This document shows, in pieces, positions 5,005 through 63,371 of a stretch of DNA of 64,000 nt. Position numbers and translations under genes: made by a program. This DNA is from Thermogutta terrifontis (GTDB lineage: Bacteria > Planctomycetota > Planctomycetia > Pirellulales > Thermoguttaceae). The stretch is from contig NZ_CP018477.1 of the NCBI RefSeq assembly GCF_002277955.1, positions 3,121,206 through 3,185,205 on the forward strand, written 5' to 3'. Positions within the stretch are counted from its first letter, which is position 1; the number at the start of each line of letters is the position of its first letter. Below the pieces are notes generated by a model, which saw only the letters and a list, made by a program, of their open reading frames with translations, was not told where the DNA came from and searched no databases.

Positions 5005-5201
5005 CGTCCCCCCTTTTCCTCTGCCGTCGGAAAGAAACCCGAACCTCGCCGAGACCTTCGGCAGGGGTGAAAGTCAGTTCGGAGGGACCTGCCTGTCAGG
5101 TCCGCATTGTGACGTTGGACAATCCAAATCATGGACCGATCTTTCTCCACGCGGTTCAATTCCCGTAAAAACGTAAGGGCAATTCATGAGTTGTCCCTAC
5201 C
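5005..5201 (+). repeat. Composite hairpin repeat element, copy 1
   Basis: A short version of the window's intergenic repeat family. It has a left block rich in CCCCTTTTCCTCTGCCG, one GGAG-headed hairpin at 5080-5103 (stem GGACCTG / CAGGTCC, loop CCTGT), a linker resembling those of the longer copies, and a decayed TCATGA-centred palindrome at 5178-5199. Copy 2 (6520-6763) is the same arrangement in the opposite orientation, so the two bracket gap. A stretch near 5150 looks like a tRNA T-arm but is part of this repeat. Confidence 0.8.
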
Positions 5202-10599: not shown

Positions 10600-10990
10600 C
10601 CATCCCCACTTTCTGTAAGGACCTGTGAGGGGCCAAAGGCTCAATGTGTTGGAGGGGCAATTCATGAATTGCCCCTACCCCCTCGGAGGGACGTGCTTGT
10701 CACGTCCGCCGCTTGACGTTTGATCATCCATCCTCTATCACCGGGCACGACAAGCGTGCCCCTCCGGAAAAAATCTCGGAGGGACCCGCTTGTCGGGTCC
10801 GTGTTTTAACGTTGCGTATTCCGTTTTGCACGAGTGGGCACGACAGGCGTGGTCCTCCGAAGCGCCCCTCGGAGGGACCTGCTTGTCAGGTCCGTGTTTT
10901 AACGTTGCGTATTCCGTTTTGCACGAGTGGGCACGACAGGCGTGCCCCTCCGAAGCGCCCCTCGGAGGGACCTGCTCGTCAGGCTCATCT
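10600..10990 (+). repeat. Composite hairpin repeat element, copy 3 (array form)
   Basis: The densest repeat cluster in the window. In order: CATCCCCACTTT block, palindrome module (about 10655-10676), GGAG hairpin at 10684-10707 (stem GGACGTG), reverse hairpin 10743-10766 (stem GGGCACG), forward hairpin 10777-10800 (stem GGACCCG), reverse 10836-10859, forward 10870-10893 (stem GGACCTG), reverse 10929-10952, and a truncated forward hairpin 10963-10986. It fills the gap between the protease gene and rsfS. Apparent reading frames through it are repeat translations, not genes. Confidence 0.85.
10777..10986 (+). repeat. 93-bp tandem duplication inside repeat copy 3
   Basis: Two near-identical units (10777-10869 and 10870-10962) and the start of a third (10963-10986) with an exact 93-bp period. 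Each unit is a forward GGAG hairpin, a linker GTGTTTTAACGTTGCGTATT and onward, and a reverse hairpin. Differences are concentrated in hairpin stems and loops. Confidence 0.9.
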
Positions 10991-21074: not shown

Positions 21075-22119
21075 GGTCAGCTCCTACCATGTCTCCCAGA
21101 ACCCTGTCCCCGTCCTCGCGGAGACGACTGTCTCTTCATACCGGAAGCGTTCCAAAAAGACCAAACGCCCTCCCCTCGTAGTTCAAGATAGCCAATTTAA
21201 GAATTCGGCGAAAGTAGCACAAAATGTAAGTGGTGCCGAAACCTTGCGTAATTCGCTGAACAATCCGCTTTTCGCGGCCGGTTCGTTTGTGTCAATGGAT
21301 GCGGGTATGTCACCCCATACGCGAATACCCGACAACGCCCTTGTAATTGTACGCCGAGCTTTGGCGAATAGTTTTTTCCTGTTTTCGCTATTTTTTGCTA
21401 ACACATGGGCGTAGGCAGATGGGCTTCGATCATCCATGAAGAGGCTTAAAGCAGGGCACCACCGCGGCGTTGCCTCCACGATTTGATCAGCCTTGGCGGA
21501 GGGCTTTTTATACGCCTGTCCAAATCTTTGGTAATGGACCACGCCGCGTTTGCGCGAGAGTCGGCCGCAGCAAAAACAGCGTTAAAGAAACCATGCCCCC
21601 CTGATTTTTGACTGAGGCAAGATTTTTGCAAGAAATAAAACTTTCGCAGAATACGAGTTCCAATCCTCGCCGGTAGGCCGTCCGATCGCCGAGTTGCGAC
21701 TTTTTCCCTTGACAGACTTTCATTCATAACCTAGGGTTGTCATGACGCCTTGAGTGAGGTTTCGCCAGATTCGGGTGTTGGCCGGCCGTGGGCAACCTTG
21801 AGAAGCATCTCTTCTAAGAGGAACGCTGACGCCAGGATCGAAAGAGATACGGCAGGCCACTGATTTGCCAGGAGCGGCTTCTTCTGAAGTGACCCAGGTA
21901 ACCCGGGTTATTCCACCAGGGAGAAAGTGCCGTCTCAGGGAGCGTAAACACGCAAAATCGGGTGGCAGAATTGTCGGGCACCGGCGCATCGTGGACCGGT
22001 CCCCATACGGATGGATGTGCAATTGACGGGACACGGATGGCCCTGATGCCGGGGCACGCCCGGGACGATGCCCGGTTTTCCCAAGCTCAATCATCGGCTT
22101 ACTGGGAGGAGATCGAGTG
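21075..22119. other. Long leader/intergenic region before the PilZ-like gene
   Basis: 1,045 bp with no convincing coding frame; minus-strand frames here have no recognisable family or ribosome site. The left half is AT-richer than its surroundings. The right part begins with a near-consensus promoter (21709-21737) and a roughly 375-nt segment with several short complementary runs up to the start codon. No c-di-GMP riboswitch consensus was recognised. Confidence 0.45.
21709..21737 (+). promoter_or_regulatory. Candidate sigma-70 promoter
   Basis: Perfect -35 TTGACA (21709-21714), 17-bp spacer, weak -10 TAGGGT (21732-21737). It points toward the PilZ-like gene and would give a leader of about 375 nt or a separate small RNA. 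Confidence 0.45.
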
Positions 22120-24345: not shown

Positions 24346-24660
24346 TCAGCCCCACTTTTCTCCTGCTGGAAAAGGGGGCGGACCTCGACGACACCTTGAT
24401 CAGGAGCGAGATTCAGTCCGATGACACCCGCTTTCGGAGGGACGTACCTGCCACGTGCGCTTTGCAGCGTTGGATCATGGATTGCCTCTCCGCGGGCACG
24501 ACGAACGTGCCCCTCCGAGGCATTTGTCGGAGGGACGTGCTTGTCACGTCCGCTTTGCAACCTTCCGATTATCCCTTTGACCGACCGGATTCTAACTCTT
24601 CGGTTCAGTCACCGGTTGGAACGGTCGGGGCAATTCATGAATTGCCCCGACCGGCTGGTA
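24346..24660 (+). repeat. Composite hairpin repeat element, copy 4 (full length)
   Basis: One of three full-length copies. Module order: CAGCCCCACTTTTCTCCTGC block, variable spacer, degenerate forward hairpin 24435-24458, reverse hairpin 24494-24517 (stem GGGCACG), forward hairpin 24528-24551 (stem GGACGTG / CACGTCC, loop CTTGT), a linker with CCGGTTGGAACGG, and the palindrome at 24622-24653. A block of roughly 65 bp around 24459-24526 is identical or nearly so in copy 5. With copy 5 in the same orientation it brackets the lyase-like gene. Confidence 0.88.
24622..24653. repeat. 32-bp perfect palindrome module
   Basis: Each half reads CGGTCGGGGCAATTCA and its exact complement follows, with no unpaired centre (TCATGA core). 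This is the best preserved version of the palindrome found in seven of the repeat copies. Confidence 0.95.
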
Positions 24661-26937: not shown

Positions 26938-27275
26938 ACCCAGCCCTGCTTTTCTGCTGCCGACGGGGACGCGAACCTTCACAGGGGGCCGCCTGGGAGT
27001 GGGATTCAACCCGGAGGCACCTGCTTTCGGAGGGACGTGCTTGATAAGTGCACTTTGCAGCGTTGGATCATGGATTGCCTCTCCGCGGGCACGACGAACG
27101 TGCCCCTCCGAGGCATTTGTGGCAGGGACGTGCTTGTCACGTCCGCTGTGCAACGTTGCGATCATCATCTTTGACCGACCGGATTCCGACTCTCCGGTTC
27201 AGTTACCGGTTGGAATGGTTGGGGCGATTGATGAATTGCCCCTGCAACACCTCGTGCCCGTTGTGTGTCTTGGGC
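26938..27275 (+). repeat. Composite hairpin repeat element, copy 5 (full length)
   Basis: Same module order as copy 4: CAGCCCTGCTTTTCTGCTGC block, degenerate forward hairpin 27028-27051, reverse hairpin 27087-27110 (stem GGGCACG), forward hairpin 27121-27144 (stem GGACGTG, head altered to GGCAG), linker, palindrome 27221-27242 with one changed half. Right of the palindrome a further segment (CTCGTGCCCGTTGTG) matches the corresponding flank of copy 6. Confidence 0.88.
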
Positions 27276-34817: not shown

Positions 34818-35004
34818 GGCCGATCCGTCTCCGTGTTGTGGTTTTGATCATTAACTGATCACCAGGGATTTGGGCTGGAAGTCTGCGCGGATTTTGTAAC
34901 CCACAACTCCTGGATCCCTCTCCTAAAGCACCATCACTGTGGCGTTAGTTTACCTGCTGAAAAGTGCCGAGGAAAGCATGGTCTTAGCCATCTGCAGAAG
35001 GCTA

Positions 35005-35343
35005 CCAGATGCCACGGGCACAATGTGGTGTAGGGGTAATTCATGAATTGCCCCTACCATTCTAACCGGCAACTGAACCGAAAAGTTGAAATCCGCTCGA
35101 TCAAGGAGCATGATCGCAAGGTTGCAATGCAGACGTGACGAGCCCGTCCCTCCGAAAAATGCTTCGGAGGGGCACGCTTGTCGTGCCCGCGGAAGGGCAA
35201 TGCATGATCCAACGCTGCAAGGCTGTCGTGACGAGATCGTCGCTCCGAAAGGGAACCTGACCATCAGTTCCCCCTGGGTTGAATTTCGCTTCCACGCGAA
35301 CCCCTGTGAACGTCGTCGGGGCCGGAAGAAAAATGGGGATGAG
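35005..35343 (-). repeat. Composite hairpin repeat element, copy 6 (full length, inverted)
   Basis: Reverse-complement version of copies 4 and 5. From left: flank CACGGGCACAATGTGG, palindrome 35033-35054 (one mismatch), linker, hairpin 35131-35154, hairpin 35165-35188 (stem GGGCACG / CGTGCCC, loop CTTGT, intact CGGAG head), decayed hairpin 35224-35247, and the terminal block ending AAAATGGGGATGAG at 35343. Confidence 0.87.
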
Positions 35344-62363: not shown

Positions 62364-63371
62364 TGGTCGATTCCTTTCTCACGTTTGGTCTGGTACAACA
62401 TTCTCGCCCCGCTTGGAACCCGCTTGGAAGTCGGAAATCCGTGCTTACGGCTTCTCAGGTTCCGCCCTTCCTCCGATCGGGATCGTACGCCTTCGCCGAA
62501 ACCCGAAGAACAAGCGTCCGCGGATCATCCCTCCTGGAAAAATGGACCTGACAAGCAGGTCCCTCCCAGGGGGGCACGCCTGTCGTGCCCGGTCTGTGTG
62601 GAGAAGCCCGTTACAGGCTGTGAAACTGCGCAAGCGTTAAAACGCTCATGCAAGATGACGGTCTGCGCGGAGTGAGCATTACAAGCCCACAAAACGCCGT
62701 TCCGAGGCATTTTTTCCTTCAAGGATCAGCTTGCTGTCTCTCAAATACACCTATTTCCAGCCTGCCTGCCCGACGCACCCACTGATTCTTCTCCTGTGAC
62801 CTTTCCTGATTTGTCCAGTTTCAATCTCCTAACTCGCCTTCTGGACGAAAGCGTCTGCAACGCAAGGGGCTCCACCCTCTCTGCTGCCTGGGTTTTTGTC
62901 TTCCACCACTGGCCTTCTGCTACCGCATGCTCTTCTTCCTCGCAGTTCCCGGGCCATGCTCGGATTTTCAATCTCCTCGAGCACGCTTCCGCCAGGAAAA
63001 CGAGTCGGAAAACCGTCCGCCGAGACGTGGTGGCTCCAGAAAACTGATTTTGCCAACCGGGCAGCTTGGAGAGTTATCCCCCAACGCGGCAATCGACACC
63101 AGACTCCACCGAGCGTCACTCGACACCGCGCTCCGCCACATGGGGGGTATTGACACTTCTCGGCAAGTGGCATACGCTCATCGTCGGCTTAAGGTGCTAA
63201 CATTTCTCGAGTGGTCGGCAAGGACTGATCTGCACTGTGCCTAACTTTTGTCACCCCGCTGAGCTTTCGCGTCGCCGGGAAACCAATTGCAATAATCGTG
63301 CACTGCCTGGAGCCGAGGGATAAGTATTAAGTGTACGTTTTACAACCTCGTGGCCATGGGGGAGGTGCGCT
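62364..63371. other. Long intergenic region before the right-edge gene
   Basis: 1,008 bp. It contains one pair of GGAG-type hairpins (62544-62590, listed separately). The rest has no supported gene; small frames on both strands are uncorrelated with any ribosome site. A ribosome site GGGGGAGG lies at its right end. Confidence 0.4.
62544..62590. repeat. Head-to-head hairpin pair, copy 8
   Basis: Two GGAG-type hairpins in opposite orientation separated by a few bases: reverse hairpin with stem GGACCTG / CAGGTCC and loop ACAAG (62544-62562, CCTCC head to 62566), and forward hairpin with stem GGGCACG / CGTGCCC and loop CCTGT (62572-62590). This resembles the paired arrangement of BIME elements without the other modules. 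Confidence 0.8.

Follow-up and report, generated by a model that had tools for sequence, protein, structure and literature searches.

The seven GGAG-headed hairpins at positions 10685-10986 of the window, by which we mean the whole 64-kb stretch of DNA analyzed here, belong to a family of REP-type elements, termed type A, whose modules form BIME/REPIN-like heterodimers. We consider it probable, at roughly 70%, that type A represents the orphaned REPs of a GGAG-guided RAYT clade that has since been lost from this genome.

An alternating cluster of GGAG-headed hairpins

A type-A hairpin consists of GGAG, followed directly by a 7-bp stem with a 5-nt loop, and occurs mostly in two stem forms, F (GGAC) and R (GGGC). 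The cluster at 10685-10986, which lies between divergent genes (trypsin-like on the minus strand and RsfS on the plus strand), holds seven hairpins in the order + - + - + - + with a period of 93 bp. When three of these were folded as single-stranded DNA, GGAG was unpaired at the foot of the stem (z -3.2 to -3.6). Pairs are inverted with GGAG at their outer ends, an arrangement termed HH in the text of Di Nocera 2013 (PMC3733652). Across the window, GGAGGGRCNNGCNTGTCNNGYCC was matched 22 times at up to 3 mismatches, compared with 0.49 matches expected from shuffles and 3 in the largest shuffle. The cluster, the palindrome that adjoins it, and the other type-A sites in the window are as follows.

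10685..10707, plus strand: type-A hairpin, F form, GGAG with stem GGACGTG and loop CTTGT (pattern match, folded)
10743..10765, minus strand: type-A hairpin, R form, GGAG with stem GGGCACG and loop CTTGT (pattern match, folded)
10778..10800, plus strand: type-A hairpin, F form, stem GGACCCG (pattern match, folded)
10836..10858, minus strand: type-A hairpin, R form, 2 mismatches (pattern match)
10871..10893, plus strand: type-A hairpin, F form, stem GGACCTG (pattern match)
10929..10951, minus strand: type-A hairpin, R form, loop CCTGT (pattern match)
10964..10986, plus strand: type-A hairpin, F form, decayed, 2 mismatches (pattern match)
10651..10678, no strand assigned: C-type palindrome GGGGCAATTCATGAATTGCCCC with one end GGAG and the other GTAG, adjoining the A cluster
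5081..5103, plus strand: lone type-A hairpin, F form, with a MAG-77 counterpart at the matching place (L102:54-76)
24436..24551, no strand assigned: A cluster + - + (24436, 24494, 24529; mismatches 3, 2, 0)
27029..27144, no strand assigned: A cluster + - + (27029, 27087, 27122; mismatches 3, 2, 1)
35131..35188, no strand assigned: A pair - + (35131, 35166; mismatches 2, 0)
62544..62590, no strand assigned: A pair - + (62544, 62568; mismatches 0, 2)

Two stretches of the window, 24403-24648 and 26996-27242, lie 2593 bp apart and are 88-89% alike in the parts compared. Each contains an A cluster as well as a palindrome around ATTCATGAAT or ATTGATGAAT, and the stretch at 34993-35251 is related to both in inverse orientation.

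Type A is a high-copy family of covarying, paired hairpins

The genome, a single contig of 4,810,751 bases that is 99.98% complete, contains 965 copies of GGAGGGRCNNGCNTGTCNNGYCC at up to 2 mismatches, compared with 2 for the backwards pattern used as a control. At up to 3 mismatches, 420 type-A hairpins, 175 of them distinct, were collected from approximately 902 kb of the genome (S1+S2+S3). The F form accounts for 267 of these and the R form for 139, with 14 having other stems, and the loop CTTGT is present in 287 of the 420. Stem positions covary: among 169 distinct rows (S1, S2), the Watson-Crick fraction was 0.79 at pair 9-19 (0.34 when shuffled), 0.68 at pair 10-18 (0.44 shuffled), and 0.79 at the half-free pair 7-21 (0.51 shuffled), and for each pair the observed level was reached in 0 of 1,000 shuffles. 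The remaining four stem pairs are fixed by the search pattern and thus give no covariation signal.

Copies are also paired in a regular manner. Of 105 close neighbors facing each other as + -, 76 had a spacing of exactly 58 bp, and among 91 pairs spaced 54-62 bp, 81 joined one F with one R, compared with about 38 reckoned from the form frequencies. Tandem copies on the same strand are present as well, at a spacing of 28-33 bp, and here F was joined with F in 48 of 58.

These properties were set against what is expected of REPs. Type A falls within the short-hairpin rule as worded in the text of PMC6006769 (tetranucleotide 0-2 nt from the hairpin, stem of at least 7 nt, loop of 2-5 nt) and shows the inverted pairing of BIMEs, and it departs from the GTAG/GTGG head of REPs in being headed by GGAG. 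The two bases preceding GGAG are mostly TC; therefore, type A has no GTAG or GTGG head further out. The family is both high in copy number and mostly extragenic: hairpins within crude ORFs numbered 155 of 288 and 37 of 78, where ORFs cover 86-88% of the sequence and also extend across repeats. An earlier, first-pass annotation of this DNA had described GGAG at the foot of hairpins, head-to-head or alternating BIME-like pairs, and REP identity. All three descriptions were borne out by the seven hairpins with GGAG before a 7-bp stem, by the strict alternation and F/R heterodimers, and by the genomic copy number together with the RAYTs elsewhere that have hairpins of the same kind at their flanks.

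Genomic position and a possible role in RNA

Among 88 clusters, 47 were tandem with respect to the adjacent genes, 22 divergent, and 12 convergent, while 6 lay within ORFs (of at least 150 amino acids) and 1 was unassigned; the background of gaps was 183 tandem, 88 divergent, and 59 convergent. By these crude ORF calls, the 88 clusters displayed no preference for gene orientation, including no avoidance of divergent gaps. This result bears on the idea that the hairpins are not mobile DNA at all but RNA-level devices, such as terminators or mRNA 3' stabilizers, multiplied by recombination and kept by selection. The hairpins are indeed stable, covarying, and mostly outside genes, and an action of REPs in mRNA has been proposed (Di Nocera 2013, PMC3733652, in its text). 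A role as terminator or mRNA end is disfavored, however, because divergent gaps are not avoided, and the cluster at 10685-10986 itself occupies such a gap. With hairpins of the same format flanking RAYT genes in other genomes, as described below, we consider an RNA-level explanation very improbable.

A known RNA family was sought at this cluster and rejected, as all six Rfam matches at E<=1 were far below their gathering scores.

Distribution of type A in other genomes

Of 119 genomes of the bacterial family searched at up to 2 mismatches, only this genome (965) and its sister genome, Thermogutta sp. isolate MAG-77 (G087; 465 copies), were rich in type A; the others had 0-6 matches, like their controls. 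In a phylum sample of 392 genomes, drawn without MAG-77 and searched at up to 1 mismatch, this genome gave 829 matches and 16 others gave one each; no genome of the sample but this one exceeded a single match. The exact pattern was found in at least 115 stretches across approximately 85,000 species genomes. Among the matches listed, 32 stretches were from outside Thermogutta and came from 17 MAGs, counted by title: 14 titled Verrucomicrobia, Spartobacteria, Lentisphaerae, Victivallales, or Kiritimatiellae, two titled "uncultured bacterium," and one Paludibacteraceae. Despite four free stem bases, the stem was fully paired in 35 of 36 pattern matches within these listed non-Thermogutta stretches.

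RAYTs flanked by type-A-format hairpins form one clade

Twelve of the 17 MAGs were searched for RAYTs, and the NCBIfam model NF047646 (REP_Tyr_transpos) gave matches in all 12, above its cut-off in 3. Headed hairpins were then sought around 78 RAYT loci, which represent part of all matches. The A format was taken as GGAG directly before a GGAC stem, with a partner whose stem starts GGTC, GGCC, or GGCG, and it was found at 4 of the 78. L231 (G515, a Verrucomicrobia MAG) has both forms on both sides, with the loop CTCCGT or CTCTGT; these same loops, unlike CTTGT, occur at L234 (G516, uncultured bacterium), which has both forms on each side and 30-bp tandem copies as in Thermogutta. L265/L242 (G514, Lentisphaerae GWF2_50_93) carries F and R on each side, one F being exact and two hairpins decayed, and for one L265 hairpin copy an alternative reading of the head is GTGG, at a distance of two bases from the stem. 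At L233 (G518, Kiritimatiellae), hairpins with a 9-bp stem and a 2-nt loop are present in both forms downstream, a pair lies inside the matched stretch, and only an R-like hairpin is found upstream. That the loops at L231, L234, and L233 are not CTTGT, and that the upstream side of L233 is R-like only, counts against type A being the orphaned REPs of such RAYTs.

A fifth locus, L199 (Verrucomicrobia Tb.RUG.75), was recovered by comparing RAYT proteins with the 32 listed non-Thermogutta A loci, only 2 of which contain a RAYT: L140, which is the place of L242, and L199. The small number of RAYTs among these A loci, like the choice of MAGs for their exact A hairpins, counts against the orphan reading. 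Exact type-A F hairpins lie at 895, 964, 1505, and 1541 of L199, where the RAYT frame ends at 1456, and R-like partners with stem GGCCGAG and loop CTCGT occupy 865, 934, and 1475, with AGAG in place of GGAG at 1475. Both proteins pass NF047646 (81.5 bits for L199 and 89.8 for L242, cut-off 80); with Pfam Y1_Tnp (cut-off 23), L242 passes at 29.6 and L199 is just below at 22.3. Their HUH motifs are PDHIH (L199) and PDHVH (L242), and each has Tyr at the catalytic place, before NPVRK. RAYTs flanked by like hairpins, as is characteristic of REPs, are thus present outside the phylum at L199, L242/L265, L231, L234, and L233.

Several further observations were made at these loci. In L199:203-1456, the RAYT frame is continuous, through two REP pairs, with an upstream frame that appears TetR-like by eye, and the two can be read as one protein. 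In G514, which has 19 NF047646 matches in all, a second RAYT, L265 (G514:C51:2183-2587), lies approximately 1.6 kb from the A-flanked one and has hairpins of a different kind, GGAG-TT(CACAACT), at its flanks.

A tree of 75 RAYT proteins placed the five A-flanked RAYTs on one side of a branch (100/100) that was present in 100% of 200 bootstrap trees. The A-format trait required 1 change on this tree compared with 4.9 in shuffles, 0 of 500 of which were as low. Of the 78 RAYT rows, 6 were left out of the trees for being short or having no HUH match, with L069 restored in the 75-row tree; an earlier 72-row tree with four A rows gave the same grouping. RAYT1, the intact RAYT of the present genome, grouped with L055, L260, and L053 (100/98), outside the A clade. 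The grouping and the shuffle test indicate that the type-A format tracks one RAYT clade, with RAYT1 outside it, in a set where the choice of MAGs was biased by picking them for exact A hairpins and where RAYT adjacency and the near-but-inexact hairpins of L231, L233, and L234 were unselected.

Resident RAYT genes and companion hairpin families

Within clusters, A hairpins are interleaved with hairpins of two other families. Family B (GGAG-T, an 8-bp GCGG stem, and a 2-nt loop) has 217 matches in this genome, 69 in MAG-77, and 0 in both G086 and G088. Family C comprises GTAG-ended palindromes around CATG, with 436 matches here, 202 in MAG-77, 3 in G086, and 0 in G088, where a palindrome may match on both strands, so that counts can double. 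Of the genus's four genomes, only this one and MAG-77 are rich in both A and B. An intact RAYT goes with B and a broken one with C, while none was found for A, the largest family.

Profile searches of the genome at E<=10 returned only RAYT1 and RAYT2 with NF047646, and only RAYT1 with PF01797. RAYT1 (C1:896562-896966) is intact, scores 83-84 bits with NF047646 (cut-off 80) and 25.9 with Pfam Y1_Tnp (cut-off 23), aligns to E. coli TnpAREP 4er8 (E 2e-7), and has HYH as its HUH motif. Its own hairpins are GGAG-headed too, and RAYT1 could conceivably move A modules in trans, in which case type A would not be orphaned. The integrity of the gene, the interleaving of the three families, and the joint abundance of A and B in the same two genomes would agree with such cross-action, but the hairpins on both sides of RAYT1 are B and not A, differing in the spacer T, the 8-bp GCGG stem, and the 2-nt loop. 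RAYT1 also stands outside the A clade, and MAG-77, with its 465 A modules, gave no RAYT match, whether searched with NF047646 (E<=0.001) or PF01797 (E<=10), a result whose weight is lowered by an assembly of 1120 contigs. We therefore regard RAYT1 as an unlikely mover of type A. For the B format, the tree required 2 changes with L001 and L260 alone (72-row tree) and 1 change when L055, which has one GGAG-T copy, was included (support 70/13), a weaker case than that of A.

RAYT2 (C1 ~3676212-3676898; L035:4713-5398) is frame-broken: the beginning of the gene and the part downstream of it are in separate frames. With NF047646 (cut-off 80) the downstream piece reaches 51 bits, and Pfam gives it no match. 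Its coding region contains the GTAG palindrome GTAGGGGCACGGCATGCCGTGCCCCTAC, which is of C format. RAYT2 might be the former mover of the A modules: a broken frame fits a lost mover, the palindrome includes the R-form 7-bp stem GGGCACG/CGTGCCC, and downstream of L069, another RAYT of the genus, lie hairpins that combine a GTAG head with GGGC stems and CTTGC or CTCGC loops. That the palindrome is headed by GTAG rather than GGAG, occurs without an F form, and fits the C pattern argues otherwise, as does the distance of RAYT2 from the A-flanked RAYTs in the tree, where its own placement is unsure; we consider this origin quite improbable. The downstream hairpins of L069 (G088:C325) are near the R form of type A, head excepted, and the neighbors of this RAYT are, by eye, type I restriction-modification methylase-like genes.

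No RAYT of the A-fitting clade was seen in any Thermogutta, and A-format flanks were found at 0 of 29 RAYT loci from other genomes of the bacterial family (part of all matches). The first-pass annotation had placed the mover, if any, elsewhere in the genome, and this expectation was not supported: RAYT1 goes with other hairpins and another clade and the broken RAYT2 with GTAG. Its REP reading was to be refuted by the absence, from this and close genomes, of a Y1_Tnp protein between matching hairpins. Taken at its word, such an absence is what this genome and the close ones examined show, and the matching proteins came from outside the phylum.

Turnover of type-A clusters between two Thermogutta genomes

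To compare this genome with MAG-77, 35 intergenic hairpin sites anchored on both sides were used. Type A was found at 31 of the 35: both species have it at 25 and one of the two at 6. Unit content differed at 23 of the 25 shared A sites and agreed at 2, and at 21 of the 25 the length difference was at least 25 bp. Two one-sided sites are large: own coordinate 374147, with 837 bp here vs 77 bp in MAG-77, and own C1:3142606 (window ~21401-21648), with 248 vs 715 bp, where MAG-77 carries a B/A hairpin cluster that is missing here and is bordered by ~45-bp direct repeats that end in CGGATAGTCTCT. The composite unit L110:6048-6298 is lacking at the orthologous site of MAG-77 and has an 86% match to a non-orthologous MAG-77 site.

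Base-exact insertion was considered at 374147 and 3142606 and rejected, as neither site aligns cleanly to the base. The other four one-sided sites were rejected as cases of presence or absence; they involve decayed hairpins (3-4 mismatches) or a single unit.

Among 78 orthologous hairpins, 51 were fully paired in both species, and stems differed in 18 of these 51. Over all 78, the loop differed in 29 and the head in 12, and stem changes affected one side at 58 places and both sides at 17, an excess of one-sided changes that speaks against type A being orphaned REPs. Taken together, the site comparison and the changes in orthologous hairpins indicate that A clusters turn over mostly at old sites, with decay as well. 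Differences at 23 of 25 sites exceed what a family long out of action should show, unless turnover is driven by recombination or another RAYT; the source of turnover could be recombination between copies, cross-action of RAYT1, late loss of the A-RAYT, or, in part, collapse of repeats in the MAG assembly.

Residue H101 and the guide tetranucleotide

E. coli H101 is discussed among guide-contact residues in the text of PMC6006769. In a first labeling, His was present at this position in 12 of 14 GTAG-labeled vs 0 of 7 GGAG-labeled RAYTs; after L236 was relabeled as GGAG and L265b and L199 were added, the counts were 12 of 13 vs 0 of 10, with L238 as the exception, where labels were set after seeing the data, a single hairpin underlies the label of L055, and only about three lineages account for the ten GGAG rows. 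GGAG may be a switched guide, such that several RAYT lineages recognize GGAG in place of GTAG and the switch accompanies loss of His at the H101 position. We put this forward as a hypothesis that is less likely than not, its odds being lowered by the post hoc recount and by some known REPs that have GGAG beside the stem, preceded by a GTGG head. If it is true, the guide-pairing scheme given in the text of Corneloup 2021 (PMC8266576) predicts that a CT cut (positions 3 and 4) would stay, whereas its CA alternative (positions 2 and 4) would become CC.

A proposed history of type A

Past transposition, loss of a RAYT gene, and the cleavage chemistry of type A are what we infer from these comparisons, in the following form. 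The hairpin would fold when the DNA is single-stranded, presenting unpaired GGAG as the guide tetranucleotide, and an HUH/Y1 RAYT would cut next to GGAG and copy or move the F/R pair. Single-stranded GGAGGGACCTGCTTGTCAGGTCC is the predicted binding and cutting target of an A-clade RAYT such as L199. The fitting RAYT would be of the clade now in Verrucomicrobia-, Lentisphaerae-, and Kiritimatiellae-type MAGs; judging from its occurrence there, it was probably active in the ancestor of this species and MAG-77 and lost later. The remaining REPs would now be changing mainly by gain, loss, and mosaic reshuffling of units at old sites.

REPs are widespread among bacterial repeats, but recognition of REPs by RAYTs has been dissected for few pairs, all GTAG in the text of PMC8266576. 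Having its own RAYT clade, a GGAG-headed class would offer a natural guide change for testing recognition rules, and a species pair with approximately 965 and 465 orphan copies would provide a view of the fate of a REP population after transposase loss.

Comparison with known REP systems

Planctomycetes are named among REP carriers in Di Nocera 2013 (PMC3733652), and the heads given in its section 5 are GTAG, GYAG, GYRG, GTRG, GTMG, and GTGG. GTAG REP families and BIMEs, as described in the texts of PMC3733652 and PMC2817692, have a hairpin of 20-40 bp with an unpaired foot tetranucleotide and inverted dimers mostly 20-100 bp apart. Type A resembles these (Di Nocera 2013, Nunvar 2010) in its many copies, inverted dimers, preferred heterodimers, and mosaics; it differs in its GGAG head and in that no RAYT for the family was found in the genome. 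Some Pseudomonas REPs (GTGGGAG..., Nunvar Table 1, PMC2817692) do place GGAG beside the stem, with GTGG as the head in front of it, whereas in type A no GTGG head is seen outside GGAG. As the start of a word, GGAG is absent from the main text, apart from figures and supplements, of PMC3733652, PMC2817692, PMC6006769, and PMC8266576, and these texts, whose heads are GTAG, GTGG, and related ones, do not support the first-pass statement that known REPs are headed by "GTAG or GGAG." A limited literature search found no paper combining GGAG, RAYT, and "repetitive extragenic palindromic." Earlier work already describes REPs, BIMEs, heterodimers, and REP populations that lack a RAYT; in the portions of the literature searched, no head of the GGAG type was found.

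REPINs, as Bertels and Rainey reportedly described them in 2011, are pairs of inverted REPs that behave as a single short mobile unit. Type A is similar in having two inverted hairpins as a unit and unlike REPINs in that it joins two stem types, F with R, and shares its clusters with two other hairpin families. The loci of the A-clade RAYTs, in turn, resemble REPtrons, in which, according to the text of Corneloup 2021 (PMC8266576), an HUH/Y1 TnpAREP/RAYT lies between REPs with a guide tetranucleotide 5' of the hairpin: here, too, an HUH/Y1 protein lies between REPs and a tetranucleotide is found 5' of the hairpin. These RAYTs differ in having T, R, or V where aligned GTAG RAYTs mostly have H, and in the GGAG head of their hairpins.

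According to the text of PMC3686654, REPs that are abundant although their RAYT is missing "appeared quite often," and RAYT loss is offered there as a model. For most RAYT-less REPs treated in the texts of PMC3686654 and PMC6006769, the RAYT persists in related strains or the strain itself encodes one for a related REP class. Type A differs from the orphan REPs described in that its fitting RAYT was found only outside the phylum, and it is like them in being abundant in a genome that lacks a fitting RAYT.
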